A stretch of DNA of 64,000 bases from Prochlorococcus sp. AG-442-N17 (GCA_003212375.1 QCPY01000002.1:35785-99784), one strand, 5' to 3'. Positions 22,712-36,314 are shown, counted from the first letter of the stretch. Numbers and translations are program-made. Notes: generated from the sequence alone by a model not told the origin.

Positions 22712-23569
22712 ATGAGCAAGGTTAAATTGATTAATAAGATCACATATTATTTTGGTTTGGTTATAAAAAAGCTTAGTTATAAAATTGGTAGATTCTTATC
22801 TTTAATTATTCCAGACCTTATTATTTATGGAATGCAAAAAAAATTGCGTGCAGTTAAATACAAAAATCGAAAAATATTTCATATTGAGGATAAGAGTTGG
22901 ATTACTAGGTACAGGGCAATTAGTTTTGAACAAAAAGAGCCCGAAACCTTAAGGTGGATAGAGAGCTTTGATCAAGATCAATGTCTTCTTGATGTAGGTG
23001 CCAACATCGGTTTATATACAATGTTTGCTTTATTTAAAGGACACGAAGTGATAGCTATAGAACCAGAAGCGCACAATTTTTGCCTACTTAATCGGAATAT
23101 AAAGATTAATAATTTTAGTGATAGAGCGATAAGCTATCCCATCGCTTTAAATGACAAGCTAACAATTTCGCAATTAAATTTAGCAAGTTTTGAATACGGC
23201 TCTGCTTTGCATACATTTGACAGAACAATCAATCAATACGGGGATCAATTCAATCCAATTACGAGGCAAGGTATGATTGGATTTACTATGGATGACCTAA
23301 TTTCATCTTTAAATAAGAGAGTCAATCATATAAAAATTGATGTTGATGGTAATGAATTTCTTGTATTAAAGGGTGGTGAGAAAACCTTCAGGAGTGATTC
23401 ATTACAATCAGTTTTAATAGAATTAGACTACAAACATGTGGAATACAGAAGTTCCGTAGAACTGATTGAGTCATATGGATTTAAACTAAATAATATAGAT
23501 TCAGAATCTAAAAAAGGTATTAAAGGAGATTCTCATTCAACTGCAAATCATATTTTTATGAGAGATTAA
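22712..23569 (+). CDS. FkbM-family methyltransferase
   Basis: CLLDVGANIGLYTMFALFKGHEVIAIEPEAHNFCLLNRNI; IKIDVDGNEFLVLKG. Confidence 0.85.
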   Translation: MSKVKLINKITYYFGLVIKKLSYKIGRFLSLIIPDLIIYGMQKKLRAVKYKNRKIFHIEDKSWITRYRAISFEQKEPETLRWIESFDQDQCLLDVGANIGLYTMFALFKGHEVIAIEPEAHNFCLLNRNIKINNFSDRAISYPIALNDKLTISQLNLASFEYGSALHTFDRTINQYGDQFNPITRQGMIGFTMDDLISSLNKRVNHIKIDVDGNEFLVLKGGEKTFRSDSLQSVLIELDYKHVEYRSSVELIESYGFKLNNIDSESKKGIKGDSHSTANHIFMRD

Positions 23570-24361
23570 TTGATGTCATTATTTTTTCCTATTCTAAAGA
23601 GTAATGAAATTTATAAAGGAAGTACGGTAGTACACAATTTTCCCCCTAATGATGTTCAAAAAGTTGTAGAAAAGTCAAGATATTTAAATCTTATTTGGAT
23701 GGATGTTAATTGTTGGAAGACGAAATTAATTACTAAAATCAGACCTTTAGAATCTAAAGAAGTTTTTTACGACTTAATAAAACCAAAGGCAAGCCATAAT
23801 GATCTATTAATAATGTGTATTACAGATGAGCCCCTGCCGCCTATCATGGCTTCTTTGCCTAAACATACACTCCCGACAACTACACCTCTCTGGAGATCAA
23901 CAGTTTGTATTTACAGAAATAACTCCTCTGCAAGTTATCAAGGAGAAATAGTACCTTTTCCAGAAAATGGGACTCTTTTATCTTTCATACCTTTTATGCA
24001 AAAAACAATAAATACAAATAATTACCTTATCTTTCTGAATCTCGAATCAAAACCTAACTCAAGGAAAGGTTCACTAAAATTTTCTACAGTCAACAAGCCA
24101 GAAATTATTATTAAAGATGCTGAAATAAACTCAAATAGTTGCAATTTTATAGATCTTAATAGCCTTAATATTGATAATGATGAACTATTAGTTTGTTACA
24201 CCAAAAGTATGTCTGGGATACCATTATTCTTATCATTTTCTGATGAAGATAGCCCAATGAGTCTTGAGCATACACATCCTCCTGCTTCATTTGTTATTCA
24301 TGGTAATAAAAATAATTTACAAAAGATCATAAAAGAAAACTGGTTTAATTTACTCTCTTAA
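23570..24361 (+). CDS. Unknown protein in FkbM operon
   Basis: 263 aa, immediately follows FkbM stop. Confidence 0.7.
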   Translation: MMSLFFPILKSNEIYKGSTVVHNFPPNDVQKVVEKSRYLNLIWMDVNCWKTKLITKIRPLESKEVFYDLIKPKASHNDLLIMCITDEPLPPIMASLPKHTLPTTTPLWRSTVCIYRNNSSASYQGEIVPFPENGTLLSFIPFMQKTINTNNYLIFLNLESKPNSRKGSLKFSTVNKPEIIIKDAEINSNSCNFIDLNSLNIDNDELLVCYTKSMSGIPLFLSFSDEDSPMSLEHTHPPASFVIHGNKNNLQKIIKENWFNLLS

Positions 24362-25209
24362 TGATTACTAATCGTATATTAAAAGCACTTAAAAACCCAG
24401 AAAAAATTGTCCCGTATATCAGAAACAGATATGCGCCAATTGTCGCTGTAAATCCAATGGATAGAAAATGCACTTTTAGTGATTTATTTATTTGGAGATG
24501 TGGTAATGAATGGAAGACTATGTACGATTTGTTCCCTTACATTAGATTATTAAATAAAAAAGAGGTTCTCTCTACTATTGAAACCTGTAAGTGTCGTTTA
24601 GTAATTCTCTCTAATAATGGAAACTTTTTAAAAGAAACTGAAATCAAATTTGAGCCTACAAAAAAAAATCTATTAAACCTTGCTGATTATATTCCTTCTT
24701 CTATGTCTTCAAACCAATACGGAACATTTATGATATTTCATGAAAATATACCAAGAAAAGAAATTTTAGGTGGAGGATATTTAACAGAAAGAGGCTATGC
24801 AAGTTATGGGTTTGGAGGCAGTAGTACTTTAAGCTACGTCCATGGAAATTTGGATGCAGTATCAGGTAAATTTTGTAGTAGAGGAATTGAAGAACTTACA
24901 TTTTTTAAAAGTACTTTTTTTAAACGGTCTTTTCAACTACAGTATTTATTCACCCCTGGAAATAGCTATGAAATAGCTATTACTAATCCAACAAGTAAAA
25001 GCCATAAAATATCTATTAACTTCTTTAATAACCAGGGAGAGAAGTTTAAGACTATTGAAAAAAAGCTTTCTAATCTTGGAGTAATAATTGTTCAATTACC
25101 TAGTTGCGAATCTAATTTCATAATTTCTATCACAAGTAATTTACCACTAGCTCGCCCTCTAATTTTTAAATCAAGAAATCAAAAATTCTTAGATGTTTTT
25201 CATGGTTAA
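24361..25209 (+). CDS. Unknown protein in FkbM operon
   Basis: 282 aa, 1-nt TAATG overlap with previous gene. Confidence 0.7.
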   Translation: MITNRILKALKNPEKIVPYIRNRYAPIVAVNPMDRKCTFSDLFIWRCGNEWKTMYDLFPYIRLLNKKEVLSTIETCKCRLVILSNNGNFLKETEIKFEPTKKNLLNLADYIPSSMSSNQYGTFMIFHENIPRKEILGGGYLTERGYASYGFGGSSTLSYVHGNLDAVSGKFCSRGIEELTFFKSTFFKRSFQLQYLFTPGNSYEIAITNPTSKSHKISINFFNNQGEKFKTIEKKLSNLGVIIVQLPSCESNFIISITSNLPLARPLIFKSRNQKFLDVFHG

Positions 25210-29514: not shown

Positions 29515-30738
29515 CTAGTTAAATAAAAGTTTTTTTAAATATGAAAAGTTTGATAATTCTAAAGCAGTATAATTTTCAGAAGAAATTCTTATCAATATTA
29601 AAGACAATATATTTTTTATTACATTAATTTTTTTTGTATGATTGAAAGTCTTTAAATCAAAAGAAAAATTAATTTGACATATTCTATGAGAGTCGCATAT
29701 CGGAATACACATTTCTTTTCCTATTGAAATAAATTGATCAATGGAATAGGACATGAATTCATCACTAGGAATATCTGGTAAAGTAAAATCTTCAAGAATT
29801 CCTTTTTTATATGGAATGAAAATAATAATATTTGATTTTAAATATGAAAAACTCTCATAATCAAATTTTGTTATTGAATTATCTAAAGTTTTTAAGACAA
29901 TATCCTTAGTATTTATTCCTGAAACTTGAAACAAATAATCTCCTCCAATGCCAAAACCTCCTACTCTTGGTGACATGTCAATAATTCTTGGAACCGGGTC
30001 TTGTTCTTCAACAATAAATTCTAAATGTATGAAAAATTTTTTTGAATTAGAGAATTGATGTAAAAAACTTTTAATTTTTTTACTTATATACTCAATATAT
30101 GAGTGATATTTATCTTTATCTAAATCTAGTGAATAAATAATATTACAACTATATTGATTCATTAACCTCCTCGATAAGAGCCAAGGATAAAAATGCGAGC
30201 CATTAACAAACCCCTCTAACGAATATTCCTTTCCTATATACTTTTGCTGAAAAAAATTATTATTATCTATATTACTTAAATCATTCTTTAAGATAACATC
30301 AGAAATCCCTCTGCTTCCAGAACCTAAACGTGGCTTTTTAATAAATTTAATTTTTTTAGTAAAGTTATAATCAATCTCTGTAAAAACATTTTCACCTAAA
30401 AATGACAAATATAAAAACTTATCGATTAATAAATATAATAATTCATTATCTGGTAAGAGTAATAGTTCAATTTGCTTATAATTGACTTTTAGTTCGTATG
30501 CTATTTTTATGGCAAAATCTGAACACCAAGATATAAAATAAAAAACACTAAAACATTCTTTTTTAATTATGAATTTTATATCATCTGAAGAAAAGATTTT
30601 AAAACCATGATTTGCCAAATAACATTTTGGATCATCATCTACGATAAATAAATTTGAATTAGACGTTAAATTATTAGTTATTAAGTTCGCAAAATCTAAA
30701 GAAAATTTAGATCCTGGAGATAAAATATAATTTATCAC
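29515..30738 (-). CDS. ATP-grasp family ligase
   Basis: FIKKPRLGSGSRGISDVIL; KYIGKEYSLEGFVNG; RIIDMSPRVGGFGIGG; GTG start overlapping upstream stop. Confidence 0.75.
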   Translation of the reverse strand: MINYILSPGSKFSLDFANLITNNLTSNSNLFIVDDDPKCYLANHGFKIFSSDDIKFIIKKECFSVFYFISWCSDFAIKIAYELKVNYKQIELLLLPDNELLYLLIDKFLYLSFLGENVFTEIDYNFTKKIKFIKKPRLGSGSRGISDVILKNDLSNIDNNNFFQQKYIGKEYSLEGFVNGSHFYPWLLSRRLMNQYSCNIIYSLDLDKDKYHSYIEYISKKIKSFLHQFSNSKKFFIHLEFIVEEQDPVPRIIDMSPRVGGFGIGGDYLFQVSGINTKDIVLKTLDNSITKFDYESFSYLKSNIIIFIPYKKGILEDFTLPDIPSDEFMSYSIDQFISIGKEMCIPICDSHRICQINFSFDLKTFNHTKKINVIKNILSLILIRISSENYTALELSNFSYLKKLLFN

Positions 30739-31349
30739 TTTATTATTGTAATAGTCTTTTCATACAAATATTTATTTTTAGATATGATTATCCTACTAGA
30801 GATAGGTTCAAATAATCCAATAATATCTGATAATTCTGAATAGAAATATTTTTCCTCTTCATAGTCAACATCTTTAGTTAATAAATTAAAAGCCATGGCT
30901 TTTGAACAGACCCTATATAAAGAGACAAGCAAATTATCTCTATAATCCTTAGTAACAAAACTACTACTTAATAAACCTGATGCTACACAATAATCATAAG
31001 AATTTTCCTCTAAATTGGTTGGGAAATCATCTTGACTATGCATAAAACTACAAGTATCGATGTTATCAAATCTTTTTATGGCATACTCTATAAAATTCAA
31101 ATTAACATCACATCCTAAATATTCAAAAGTATTAATCGATCTCATATCATTTAAATAATTAAATAAATCTCCTCTACCACATCCAAGATCTAGCAATGTA
31201 AAATACTCTTTAAATTGAAAATAGTTTATAAGTTCTTGAAAACGAATTTCTTGCTTTCCGCTAGCCCAACCAATAGATTTTAATGAATTTATTCCATATT
31301 TTTCTATTAATCGATCATAGTGATCTGATATAGATTGGTGGCTACTCAT
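30735..31349 (-). CDS. SAM-dependent methyltransferase
   Basis: FTLLDLGCGRGDLFNYL; YDYCVASGLL. Confidence 0.85.
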   Translation of the reverse strand: MSSHQSISDHYDRLIEKYGINSLKSIGWASGKQEIRFQELINYFQFKEYFTLLDLGCGRGDLFNYLNDMRSINTFEYLGCDVNLNFIEYAIKRFDNIDTCSFMHSQDDFPTNLEENSYDYCVASGLLSSSFVTKDYRDNLLVSLYRVCSKAMAFNLLTKDVDYEEEKYFYSELSDIIGLFEPISSRIIISKNKYLYEKTITIIK

Positions 31350-32118
31350 TTTTCTTTAATTTATGGCAAAGGTTAATAAGATTTTCATTCAAAACTAGTT
31401 CTAATTTTTTTTCAGGAAGTGAATTGGCTAGCTTATTTTTCACGAAGTCAATAACATCTCCAGGACATTGATAAGGATAATCGCTACCAATTAGAATCTT
31501 CTGTTCTAGATTCAAGCATAGGTCTATTATGGTCAATTCATGAAGTAATCCCTTTCTTTTAGTGATTGTGTAGGACAAGTCAATCCAACAATTTTTTTTA
31601 TGCCGTATAAGTTGACTAAATTCAAGCATTTTTATATCAAATCCGTGAAGAAAAATGAAATCGTTATCATTATAATTGTCAATTTTATCTAATAAATTAA
31701 AAATTGTATTTTCTTTGTATAGCTGTTTTGTTGACCAAGGATATGTACAAATAAAGCCTGCTAAACCTTTTTCAGCAACAAATTCAAGAAATCTTTGAAA
31801 CCTATTTGACTCGAACAAGAAATTATCAGATAGTAATCTTGGATGATATTTTATGCCAATAATATTTAGATCCGAAATAAGCTTGTTATCAATATTTATT
31901 TTATGTAAGTCATCACTATATGGTAGTACATTATAAAGATCAGTATTTTGTGAATAATCAATCAGGGTTTCCATTGAACTTATAACTTTTTTAATACTTA
32001 ATCCTGGTAAATATGTATTTACTAAGCAAGTCACTCTAGTAGAAGAAAGCTTAGATTTATAATCCTTAAAATCTGATATTTCTATAAAATGTACATTGCT
32101 ATCAGATATTTTTTTCAT
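31342..32118 (-). CDS. Amidohydrolase-2-like TIM-barrel protein, divergent metal site
   Basis: Start re-set to MKKISDSNVHF giving ATGA overlap; IKYHPR, FLHGF, ILIGSDYPYQCPGDV. Confidence 0.65.
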   Translation of the reverse strand: MKKISDSNVHFIEISDFKDYKSKLSSTRVTCLVNTYLPGLSIKKVISSMETLIDYSQNTDLYNVLPYSDDLHKINIDNKLISDLNIIGIKYHPRLLSDNFLFESNRFQRFLEFVAEKGLAGFICTYPWSTKQLYKENTIFNLLDKIDNYNDNDFIFLHGFDIKMLEFSQLIRHKKNCWIDLSYTITKRKGLLHELTIIDLCLNLEQKILIGSDYPYQCPGDVIDFVKNKLANSLPEKKLELVLNENLINLCHKLKKNE

Positions 32119-32837
32119 ATTAGGTTCTCTATTTCCTGACATACCTTCGTAACAGAATCTATTGTTTTTTGTGTCGTAACAGACAAACTATTTATAATAT
32201 CTTTTCTTAAACTTAAGTTATTTGGAGACCAATATCTTAACTGCAAAGTAATCTGCCCTTTTTTAATGGGATTACTTTTATGAATAAGGTCATGGTTAAA
32301 TATTAATGCAGATCCTCTTTCTATTGAAATTGGATTGTAATTTTCATCCTTTTCATACTCTTCTCCAACTATTTTTAGGCCCCAATATGGATCCTTTTTT
32401 ACAGTTACTGTCTCTCTTCCTTTAAATATATTTAGTCTTCCTTGATCACTTAAAGGTAACCATATAATAATACCTTTTGCATTTGGACCTAGTATCCAAA
32501 AATCTTTATGAGGAGGGGCCGAGAATTTACTATTAAGTGAATTATCTATTCGTATTTGTGGGGAAGTCCATTTTAAAGGACTTTTTAAGTGTTCATTTAT
32601 TAAATTTTGGAAATCTTGATCAAATTTTTTATATGTAAAAGATGTAAGATTTATAGATTGGTTAAAAAGTTCAAAGGCATCTCTAAGATTCTCAGTAAGT
32701 GGATTTTTAGACAGTTCGATACCTCCTCTGGAAGATCTATTTATAATACCTAGGTTGTAATATCTATCTATCGTTAAAAGCTCTACAGTTAATTCTTCTA
32801 AGATTTTCAAATCAAACTTATAAATTCTTAAATCCAT
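32115..32837 (-). CDS. 2OG-Fe(II) oxygenase (phytanoyl-CoA dioxygenase-like)
   Basis: HKDFW ... IFNHDLIHKSNPIKKGQITLQLRYW. Confidence 0.65.
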   Translation of the reverse strand: MDLRIYKFDLKILEELTVELLTIDRYYNLGIINRSSRGGIELSKNPLTENLRDAFELFNQSINLTSFTYKKFDQDFQNLINEHLKSPLKWTSPQIRIDNSLNSKFSAPPHKDFWILGPNAKGIIIWLPLSDQGRLNIFKGRETVTVKKDPYWGLKIVGEEYEKDENYNPISIERGSALIFNHDLIHKSNPIKKGQITLQLRYWSPNNLSLRKDIINSLSVTTQKTIDSVTKVCQEIENLI

Positions 32838-33109: not shown

Positions 33110-33985
33110 TTATATTTTTTTTAATTTAATTAAATAAATTACTTCATTCAATATACGCTCCATTCCTTTTTTATCAATAATTAATGAGGCTGCTCTGGCT
33201 GTTATCTTTTTTTGAGAGATTGAAGGAATTAAAATCTTCTCACCAATCCCTAAAATAGCTTTCGCTTTAAGGAGCTTATTGGCTAATCTATTTTCAGCTT
33301 GTGTTTGTGGGATCACCCAAACCGGTTTAGCAAGACTCATAAGTTCAAGAAGTGTCATTCCACCATTAGTAATAGCCCAATCACATGAAGCCATTATTTG
33401 GGGTAAATTATTTGGGTTTTTGAAAACTTTAAAGTTAAAGTTTTCAGAAGATATTTCTCTTTTATTAAAAGGTCCTTGAATAAGTTTAACTGACTGGTTT
33501 TTATTTGCTAAATATCTTGATACTTTTAATGATCTATTTAATATATCCGCACCGCCAATACAAACTAAAACACCTTTCTTTTCAATATTTGTAGAAATAC
33601 TAGCAATATCATTCCTTATAATGCAATACTCAAAACCTTCTTTGTGAAACGTTCCTATATTTGCATTTTCTTGTTCATTAACATTAATTGTAAGATCAGG
33701 TATGCACTTTGATTGCCAATCTAAGCCAACTATTATCGAATCTGTATTTCTAAGTTCCTTAAATAAGGAATCATTTGCTGAAGGGAGATCTAGTAAGAAT
33801 ACATCTGGTTTAAAAACATCATCATTTTTTAGAAAATTAGATTTTTTTATTTTGTTATTTATTATTAGTGAAACATAATAACCACTATCTATTAAAAATT
33901 CTGAAAGTGAAGTGCTTCTTTTGATATGACCATAACCTAATTGCGAATTCCCTTCTGCAAACAATGTAAATTTGTACTTATCCAT
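33110..33985 (-). CDS. PseG-like nucleotide-sugar hydrolase/glycosyltransferase
   Basis: LFAEGNSQLGYGHIKRSTSL; AITNGGMTLLELMSLAKPVWVIPQTQAE. Confidence 0.8.
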   Translation of the reverse strand: MDKYKFTLFAEGNSQLGYGHIKRSTSLSEFLIDSGYYVSLIINNKIKKSNFLKNDDVFKPDVFLLDLPSANDSLFKELRNTDSIIVGLDWQSKCIPDLTINVNEQENANIGTFHKEGFEYCIIRNDIASISTNIEKKGVLVCIGGADILNRSLKVSRYLANKNQSVKLIQGPFNKREISSENFNFKVFKNPNNLPQIMASCDWAITNGGMTLLELMSLAKPVWVIPQTQAENRLANKLLKAKAILGIGEKILIPSISQKKITARAASLIIDKKGMERILNEVIYLIKLKKI

Positions 33986-34021: not shown

Positions 34022-35089
34022 TTAATTTTGAATCATCGAATGGCAAAGTGGCTCGCCAAATTTAATATCTCTTGAGGCTTTCTTTCCTAAAATACTTTCA
34101 TAGTGACTTGGCTTGATTCCTAATCCAGGGCGAATTGATCTTACATTTAATGGAGTAAAGATTTCTCCTTCTTTTATATTATCAACTACATATAATGATT
34201 TCCTACTTTGAATTGAAGTTTTTTCACAATCAGCAACCTTTAGTCTGCCGTCTCCTTTAGATAGATTTGCTAATTTTGTTGTTTCCACTAAAGTGGTTAA
34301 CTCTTCAGGAGTAATAGAAAATTGACTGTCCACTCCTCCTTCCCCGTCATTTAACATGAAATGTTTTTCAATTAATTTAGCCCCCATCATTACCGATAAA
34401 AGAGGTATTGTGATGCCTTTTGTATGATCAGAGAGTCCAGAAATTACTTTAAAAGATTTAGATATTTCTTTTATTGCTCTTAGATTAGCTTCTTCAGGAG
34501 GTGCAGGATATGAAGATGTACAGTGTAGAACAATTAATTTAGTCGCACCTTCTTCTCTCGCTGTATTAATTGCTTCATTTATTTCTTGATAGGTAGCTAA
34601 TCCAGTGGACAATATAATTGGCTTCCCAGTCTTGGCAACTTTTTTTATTAAGGGTATATCTATTAATTCAGGTGAGGCAATCTTATATACAGGACAATTA
34701 AGTTCTTCCAGAAAATCAACAGATGTCAAATCAAAAGGTGAAGAAAAAATTGTTATACCAATCTTTTGAGCATGTTTAAACAACTGAGAATGCCATTCCC
34801 AAGGAGTATGAGCTTCCTGATATAAATTGTATAATTTTTTGCCTTTCCAAATACCATCTTTAACAAAAAATTCTGGTGAATTATGGTTAATGGTAATAGT
34901 ATCTGCAGTATATGTTTGGATTTTTATAGCATCAGCTCCACACTCCTTAGCTTTTGAAATAATTTTGAGTGCATTTTCTATATTCCCTTTATGGTTGCCT
35001 GACATTTCAGCAACAATATAAGGATTATTCTCACCTCCAATTTTCCTTCCATTTATATTCACTTCGCCTCCTAATGACTCTTCCATCAA
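34022..35089 (-). CDS. NeuB/PseI-family nonulosonic acid synthase with SAF domain
   Basis: YIVAEMSGNHKGNIENALKIISKAKECGADAIKIQTY; LHCTSSYPAPPEEANL; LSDHTKG. Confidence 0.9.
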   Translation of the reverse strand: MMEESLGGEVNINGRKIGGENNPYIVAEMSGNHKGNIENALKIISKAKECGADAIKIQTYTADTITINHNSPEFFVKDGIWKGKKLYNLYQEAHTPWEWHSQLFKHAQKIGITIFSSPFDLTSVDFLEELNCPVYKIASPELIDIPLIKKVAKTGKPIILSTGLATYQEINEAINTAREEGATKLIVLHCTSSYPAPPEEANLRAIKEISKSFKVISGLSDHTKGITIPLLSVMMGAKLIEKHFMLNDGEGGVDSQFSITPEELTTLVETTKLANLSKGDGRLKVADCEKTSIQSRKSLYVVDNIKEGEIFTPLNVRSIRPGLGIKPSHYESILGKKASRDIKFGEPLCHSMIQN

Positions 35090-35474: not shown

Positions 35475-36314
35475 ATGGTTAGTAAAGTTATATTTAGGGA
35501 AATAGACAAGGAAGAGGAATCTTCAATAATTGAGTCTTTATATGAATTTGGCTATGCAAAGATTAAATCTTATTTTAATTTTGATGATGCTTTAAGAATA
35601 GGAGATTGGCTTACTAGTAAACATTCAGAACTTATCGCCAAAAATAAATCATATAACGAGAAAATTAGAGCAGGTTCAAAGGACAAAATAATTTTTAGTA
35701 TTCATAAATATAATGATATTTTCCTTGATTTTATAGATACAAGTATAGTCAGAAAAATTTTAATTAAGTTCCTTAATGATCCCTATTACAGACTAATTCC
35801 GAATGAACTTCCTAATTTTACTCTAGGCTACTTCAATGCTAGGTCTAGCGGGAATGAATTACCTTTACATATGGATAACTATGTTCCCTACAGTGGTTCT
35901 GTGCCTCTTGCTTGTCAAGTAGCTTATTATTTTAATAAGAGTGATATTAAAAATGGTTGTACTATTGTCGTTCCTAAGTCTCATAAGTCAGGGACCTACG
36001 CAGATAGAAGTTCAACCGATATAAAGCATATAATCTGTCAGCCTGGAGATTGCGTTGTTTGGGACAGTAGAATTTGGCATGGAACAACTAATAATGTGGA
36101 AAGCCATGATAGATGGGCTTTAATTTCTACCTATAAGCAATGGTTCTTAAAGCAAACCTTGGAAATGACTAGTACTATTTCTTCAAGCCAGTATTCAAAA
36201 TTAAATAATATTCAGAAACAACTTCTTGGCTTTTGTGCAATGACTCCAAAAAATGAATTTGATAGTGTTTCTACCAAAAAGGGTTATGAAGATCTTCCAA
36301 CTCTTATAAATTAG
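35475..36314 (+). CDS. Phytanoyl-CoA dioxygenase-like 2OG oxygenase
   Basis: LHMDNYVPYSG...VPKSHKSG...WDSRIWHGTTNN. Confidence 0.75.
   Translation: MVSKVIFREIDKEEESSIIESLYEFGYAKIKSYFNFDDALRIGDWLTSKHSELIAKNKSYNEKIRAGSKDKIIFSIHKYNDIFLDFIDTSIVRKILIKFLNDPYYRLIPNELPNFTLGYFNARSSGNELPLHMDNYVPYSGSVPLACQVAYYFNKSDIKNGCTIVVPKSHKSGTYADRSSTDIKHIICQPGDCVVWDSRIWHGTTNNVESHDRWALISTYKQWFLKQTLEMTSTISSSQYSKLNNIQKQLLGFCAMTPKNEFDSVSTKKGYEDLPTLIN

Follow-up and report, generated by a model that had tools for sequence, protein, structure and literature searches.

In the pseudaminic acid pathway, PseB-C-H-G-I-F, PseH normally acetylates the 4-amine of the PseC product. WecE makes a different amino sugar precursor, dTDP-4-amino-4,6-dideoxygalactose (dTDP-Fuc4N), and L-amino acid ligases of the ATP-grasp fold, such as BL00235 and RizA, make dipeptides. 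Two functional precedents bring ATP-grasp enzymes and surface sugars together. In C. difficile, a mutant in the ATP-grasp_4 gene CDR20291_0245 no longer has the peptidylamido sugar, and the gene is adjoined by one for an FdtB-like aminotransferase (PMC5207246). The type-B flagellin genes there (CDR20291_0244-0247) pair ATP-grasp_4 with a sugar aminotransferase, as do many relatives of the locus described below, but they include FemAB-like and ornithine cyclodeaminase-like genes, no amidohydrolase-like gene is described among them, and the sugar is of the FdtB type rather than one of PseI and PseG (PMC5207246). Shewanella oneidensis carries sfmABCDE, with ATP-grasp and methyltransferase genes, in a strain whose pseudaminic-type sugar bears a 236/250/264-Da O-methylated group; the likeness to the present locus (ATP-grasp, SAM methyltransferase and pseudaminic-type sugar) is one of gene description, and neither an amidohydrolase-like gene nor an aldolase is described there (PMC3765264). 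In the open-licence literature, we found no paper linking an ATP-grasp enzyme with pseudaminic acid and an amidohydrolase, and none linking ATP-grasp with Fuc4N.

The locus considered here lies in a window of 64,000 nucleotides (the whole stretch of DNA that was analysed) from Prochlorococcus sp. AG-442-N17, whose assembly of 1.18 Mb is 72.6% complete and groups with Prochlorococcus. We read it as a portable cassette for the N-acylation of cell-surface sugars, in which the ATP-grasp enzyme would amide-link a tailored carboxylic acid to the amine of a sugar precursor, and give this reading a probability of roughly 0.6. Given the two precedents, the cassette would be a variant of known ATP-grasp sugar amidation; the interest lies in the wider pattern of a fixed ligase-amidohydrolase core, a swappable acid-maker and two sugar partners. 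The genes concerned are these:

29515-30738, minus strand: ATP-grasp gene, 407 aa, GTG start, carboxylate-amine ligase-like
30735-31349, minus strand: SAM methyltransferase (MT) gene, 204 aa
31342-32118, minus strand: gene for an amidohydrolase-superfamily TIM-barrel protein (AH), 258 aa, DxHxH altered to DSNVH
32115-32837, minus strand: Fe(II)/2OG dioxygenase-like (2OG) gene, 240 aa, operon-specific
33110-33985, minus strand: PseG-like nucleotide-sugar hydrolase gene, TIGR03590 60.4 bits, below cut-off
34022-35089, minus strand: PseI-like nonulosonate synthase gene, TIGR03586 480.9 bits, above cut-off
35475-36314, plus strand, divergent: PhyH-family Fe/2OG oxygenase gene, PF05721 56.5 bits

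As a preliminary description of this DNA had it, four minus-strand ORFs fill 29515-32837, overlapping by 4, 8 and 4 nt (ATGA, ATGAGTAG and GTGA), and PseG-like and NeuB/PseI-like genes are their neighbours. All four ORFs are intact; the distance to the PseG-like gene, upstream and likewise on the minus strand, is 272 nt, and PseI follows after another 36 nt. The AH start within ATGA is at 32118; the longest possible start of its ORF is at 32142. Short gene overlaps are frequent in compact genomes, so the case against chance rests on recurrence of the gene set elsewhere. Pfam scores fall below cut-off for three of the four operon genes, MT alone passing, and relatives and structure were therefore needed; the family calls made earlier are weak by Pfam for those three, and predicted folds back the ones for AH and ATP-grasp. 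Elsewhere in the window, at 22712-25209 on the plus strand, an FkbM-type methyltransferase gene, with two genes lacking a Pfam match after it, forms a tight run that resembles a second small surface-modification operon.

Within the Prochlorococcus family the set is rare and absent from nearly all genomes sampled: counting its own genome, ATP-grasp relatives occur in 2 of 300, AH relatives in 4 of 400 and 2OG relatives in 1 of 60. The ATP-grasp search reached one other genome of the 300 (G065), which the AH search hit independently about 3 kb away and where a methyltransferase gene overlaps the ATP-grasp gene. The AH profile found G380 and G025 in the family and G655, G539 and G479 in the wider phylum, with ATP-grasp adjoining or near AH in all five. 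The G380 locus is identical to that of Prochlorococcus marinus MIT 9314 (L097), which has AH, ATP-grasp and PhyH genes; G025 carries pseB-, pseC-, pseF- and pseI-like genes, ATP-grasp, an RraA-like gene and AH; and G479 comes close to the window's set with the end of PseI, ATP-grasp, an HMGL-like gene, MT, AH and a PseG-like gene. Scanning GTDB genome contigs with an AH profile from a four-sequence alignment gave 19 loci in Melainabacteria, Bacteroidota, Anaerolineales, Cohnella, Acidobacteria, Prochlorococcus and SAR11, the last from Pelagibacteraceae AG-337-O02.

The 23 AH loci compared (the window, L003, L014, L026 and L079-L097) span Cyanobacteria, Melainabacteria, Bacteroidota, Chloroflexi, Firmicutes, Acidobacteria and SAR11, at least six phyla, and 20 of them have a member of the ATP-grasp family nearby, the exceptions being L082, L083 and L085. 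Apart from the window and G065, the loci were found through AH, and ATP-grasp was looked for only afterwards, so this count is not biased by ATP-grasp. A second sample, taken from the orders or classes to which a Flavobacteriales, a Cohnella and a Bacteroidales genome belong and searched with an AH profile, yielded eight new loci (L122 duplicates L093), of which seven have ATP-grasp no more than about 6 kb away. Far from never co-occurring, relatives of AH and ATP-grasp turn up together across phyla, a good part of their loci also with MT and with PseI/PseG, and the two are a real, mobile pair. Neither INPHARED phages nor IMG/VR contigs contained relatives of the window's AH or ATP-grasp proteins, and plasmids gave only weak generic amidohydrolase matches, for an AH relative. 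Many viral contigs (L028-L078) encode MT-related methyltransferases (E to 1e-13) without either partner; a phage or viral origin was rejected.

The sugar side of the window is recognisable in part. Its PseI is a PseI synthase by TIGR03586 (cut-off 340.25 bits) and is 49% and 48% identical to the PseI proteins of the AH/ATP-grasp clusters L089 and L096, whereas its neighbour falls short of the TIGR03590 cut-off (153.55 bits) and is PseG-like only, with the PseG-like proteins of AH loci L096, L094 and L082 as its best matches among the fetched loci. These two genes are shared with the pseudaminic acid pathway; relatives of PseB, PseC and PseF were not found in the examined stretches of the window's contig, and in the genome as a whole PseF was not found and the sole strong PseC-like match lies below cut-off, which, at 72.6% completeness, is not to be read as absence. 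PseI and/or PseG accompany the cassette in the window, L014, L026, L089, L094, L096, L119 and L121, most of which have PseG in addition to PseI. Most other loci have it with a DegT aminotransferase, which in Cohnella (L092) NCBIfam identifies as WecE (598.7 bits, cut-off 434.85). An aminotransferase paired with ATP-grasp is seen in many relatives, and none was found beside the window genes. The linkage to PseI/PseG recurs, but the set also lies beside a WecE-type aminotransferase without nonulosonate genes, and so looks like a portable cassette for attaching acids and not like a pathway confined to nonulosonates.

The WecE context often includes a DPM-like glycosyltransferase, a GH130-like protein and a PhyH-like family, c3, whose members (L081:3163-3939 and relatives) are proteins of about 250 aa without a Pfam match. 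The GH130-like family, c7 (L081:8061-8984 and relatives; PF04041, 31 bits), lies near AH in several loci and is odd for a biosynthetic cluster.

The window ATP-grasp protein scores 21.1 bits against ATP-grasp_3 (PF02655; cut-off 23.2) and is divergent, with 14-22% identity to the other members of its alignment. ATP-grasp_4 matches 15 of the 17 aligned members (E <= 0.001) and the L-amino acid ligase domain LAL_C2 matches 11. The predicted model (17 sequences, pLDDT 79.2) has the L-amino acid ligase 3vot as its top PDB match (E 1.2e-14), with PylC 4ffl and RizA 4wd3 also high; it agrees with the family call and supports an ATP-grasp fold and a resemblance to L-amino-acid ligases. By alignment, the nucleotide-binding and catalytic set of Lys-Pro, Gly-rich loop, acidic metal ligands and Arg is present (K135-P136, GSGSRG at 139-144, E240, D254, R258). 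Although most relatives share LAL_C2 with L-amino acid ligases, BL00235 (3vot), RizA and PylC are only about 13-14% identical to the window protein, and they act on free amino acids. This fold, and the three AH loci that lack ATP-grasp, would also suit a cassette whose natural product is a small amide or peptide left free, with the sugar genes as mere neighbours in a hypervariable island; such a product is unlikely, because linkage to aminotransferase, PseI/PseG and glycosyltransferase genes is repeated in unrelated phyla and the gene families obtained by clustering include no recurrent gene of NRPS size.

Sequence searches of the PDB gave no match to AH even with a 19-member profile, so a fold search was needed. 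The predicted model (19-sequence alignment; pLDDT 89.9, pTM 0.90) is a TIM barrel, in agreement with the family call, and its PDB matches are amidohydrolase-superfamily barrels: 3cjp (E 1.3e-8), 3irs, 4mup and ACMSD 4ifk. PF04909 (Amidohydro_2) matches 18 of the 19 aligned members, the window member falling short of E 0.001 with 17.0 bits against a cut-off of 26.4. In place of the strand-1 metal motif DxHxH, it reads D6-S-N-V-H10, as had been noticed at the outset (SNVHF). The first His of the motif is Asn here and mostly Leu elsewhere (DSLxH in most), and DxHxH is intact only in the AH of L116-L119, L123 and L124, which makes it unlikely that the family's hallmark is a fixed bimetal site. The superfamily's later His and its final Asp are both there, and the conserved residues are H10, K90-x-H92-x-R94, H158 and D213. 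Compared with the TIM barrels of Amidohydro_2 members ACMSD (4ifk, 4epk) and Atu3138 (4mup), AH keeps H10, H158 and D213 but, in the window, lacks that first His, and it adds the K-x-H-x-R motif. LigI and LigJ belong to Amidohydro_2 as well. Two AH genes on short Bacteroidota contigs without ATP-grasp (L083:3273-4055 and L085:2383-3162) appear solitary, each lying downstream of a neighbour from one shared 640-aa family.

Because NagA and dihydroorotase belong to the amidohydrolase superfamily and are both among the PDB matches, and one cluster (L014) carries a PIG-L deacetylase, AH could be imagined as a NagA-like sugar N-deacetylase acting before ligation, or as a ring-closing cyclic amidohydrolase acting after it. 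Either role is improbable: in the WecE loci the transaminase makes a free 4-amine and deacetylation would be needless, and the fold search ranks uncharacterised amidohydrolases first, the ACMSD decarboxylase being among those that come next. The window AH is also divergent, with 20-26% identity to the other members of its alignment and the longest terminal branch of the AH tree (4.66), and with metal ligands lost and pseB/C/F not found, the cluster might be taken for a decaying or repurposed remnant. That is distinctly improbable for a cluster with all ORFs intact and overlaps preserved in an incomplete genome, when the first His is absent from many full-cluster relatives while others keep DxHxH.

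The remaining operon genes differ in how widely they recur. MT (PF13649, 33.7 bits, above cut-off) carries the motif LDLGCGRGD at 53, and its cluster relatives, which share a conserved LGW/IGW N-terminal motif, lie beside AH/ATP-grasp in L003, L026, L079, L080, L089, L091, L092, L119, L123 and L124, under half of the loci. The operon 2OG gene scores 17.6 bits against PF05721 (PhyH; cut-off 22) and has, judged from its sequence only, the HxD...H facial triad and Arg (H110-x-D112, H186, R201). The searches made found no relatives of it beyond its own genome, and it scores about 9 bits against a profile of the cluster PhyH proteins. The PhyH gene that does recur is the divergent one at 35475-36314, which reaches 95 bits against that profile built without it and has H132-x-D; by this likeness it is probably the window's member of a swappable acid-maker set, outside the span first reported. 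Its identity as a sporadic carbohydrate cluster protein (TIGR04324) was rejected, at 16.1 bits against 150. The preliminary description's idea of a tailoring and ligation pathway was thus largely right for the AH and ATP-grasp set, and the operon 2OG gene, one of the four it named, did not prove to belong to the conserved set. Chance neighbours without shared function are hardly credible, even though the 2OG gene has no recurring partner and genomic islands in this group accumulate surface genes that are unrelated to one another, since the genes co-occur in several phyla and did so again in an independent sample, and overlapping AH/ATP-grasp/MT genes are found also in L013, L025 and L026.

Four gene families alternate in what we call the acid-maker slot: an HMGL-type aldolase (one member scoring 268.8 bits as a 4-hydroxy-2-oxovalerate aldolase, subfamily cut-off 229), an RraA/LigK-type aldolase (the RraA member being nearest LigK), a PhyH oxygenase (c8) and an orphan of 701-718 aa without a Pfam or NCBIfam match. 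The first two occupy one slot with unrelated folds, both of the pyruvate-aldol type, and the known relatives of the slot families suggest that they make the acid. Exactly one family is present in 19 of the 20 ATP-grasp loci and two in none (0 of 200,000 permutations were overlap-free), and the second sample again has exactly one in six of seven loci and two in none; these numbers overstate independence, because the choice of families followed a look at the first loci, a number of contigs are short and not all loci are independent of one another (L091 and L092 come from a single genome, and L123 is close to L124). On the AH tree we count a minimum of nine switches of acid-maker state, so that shared ancestry does not explain the exclusivity, although many branches of the tree are weakly supported. 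The orphan family (L003:8538-10640, L079:1490-3640, L088:8379-10532, also L118) is seen here only in this slot. A further family of 313-336 aa, likewise without a Pfam or NCBIfam match, follows the HMGL-type aldolase in three Bacteroidota loci (L081:6174-7139, L086:7125-8063 and L090:12051-13058).

Under the N-acylation reading, one interchangeable acid-maker per genome would make a carboxylic acid, AH would tailor it and, in some genomes, MT would methylate it; the ATP-grasp enzyme would activate the acid as an acyl phosphate and then form an amide between it and the amine of a sugar precursor. We infer both the order of these steps and the ligation to the sugar amine. HMGL-like and LigK-like enzymes both carry out pyruvate aldol chemistry, which makes a 4-hydroxy-2-oxo acid a plausible early intermediate in the loci that have them, and AH would most likely contribute a hydratase, lactonase or cyclising step on the acid. 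In WecE-type genomes the cassette would acylate dTDP-4-amino-4,6-dideoxygalactose. In the window, where the sugar side is PseI and a PseG-like protein, the expected product is a nonulosonate with an unusual N-acyl group, perhaps on the nitrogen normally acetylated by PseH; there, N7 of the final sugar would derive from the 4-amine of the PseC product, and ATP-grasp may stand in for PseH. Such replacement would not be general, since some clusters retain a GNAT acetyltransferase (L014).

It is also possible, though we hold this more tentatively, that the pattern amounts to a previously undescribed modular amide decoration of surface sugars, with a fixed ligase-AH core that has been carried between phyla, at least four acid-makers that are unrelated and mutually exclusive (the orphan family among them), both nonulosonates and dTDP-Fuc4N as partners, and a new activity for AH with its degenerate metal site. 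If the N-acylation reading is true, roles could be assigned to several unannotated families, and new N-acyl nonulosonates and Fuc4N derivatives would be predicted that mass spectrometry could find. Surface sugars help decide phage attachment to marine picocyanobacteria and SAR11, and the cassette, rare as it is, occurs in members of both. Bacteria would then diversify their surface sugars by swapping one acid-making gene while the attachment core is kept.
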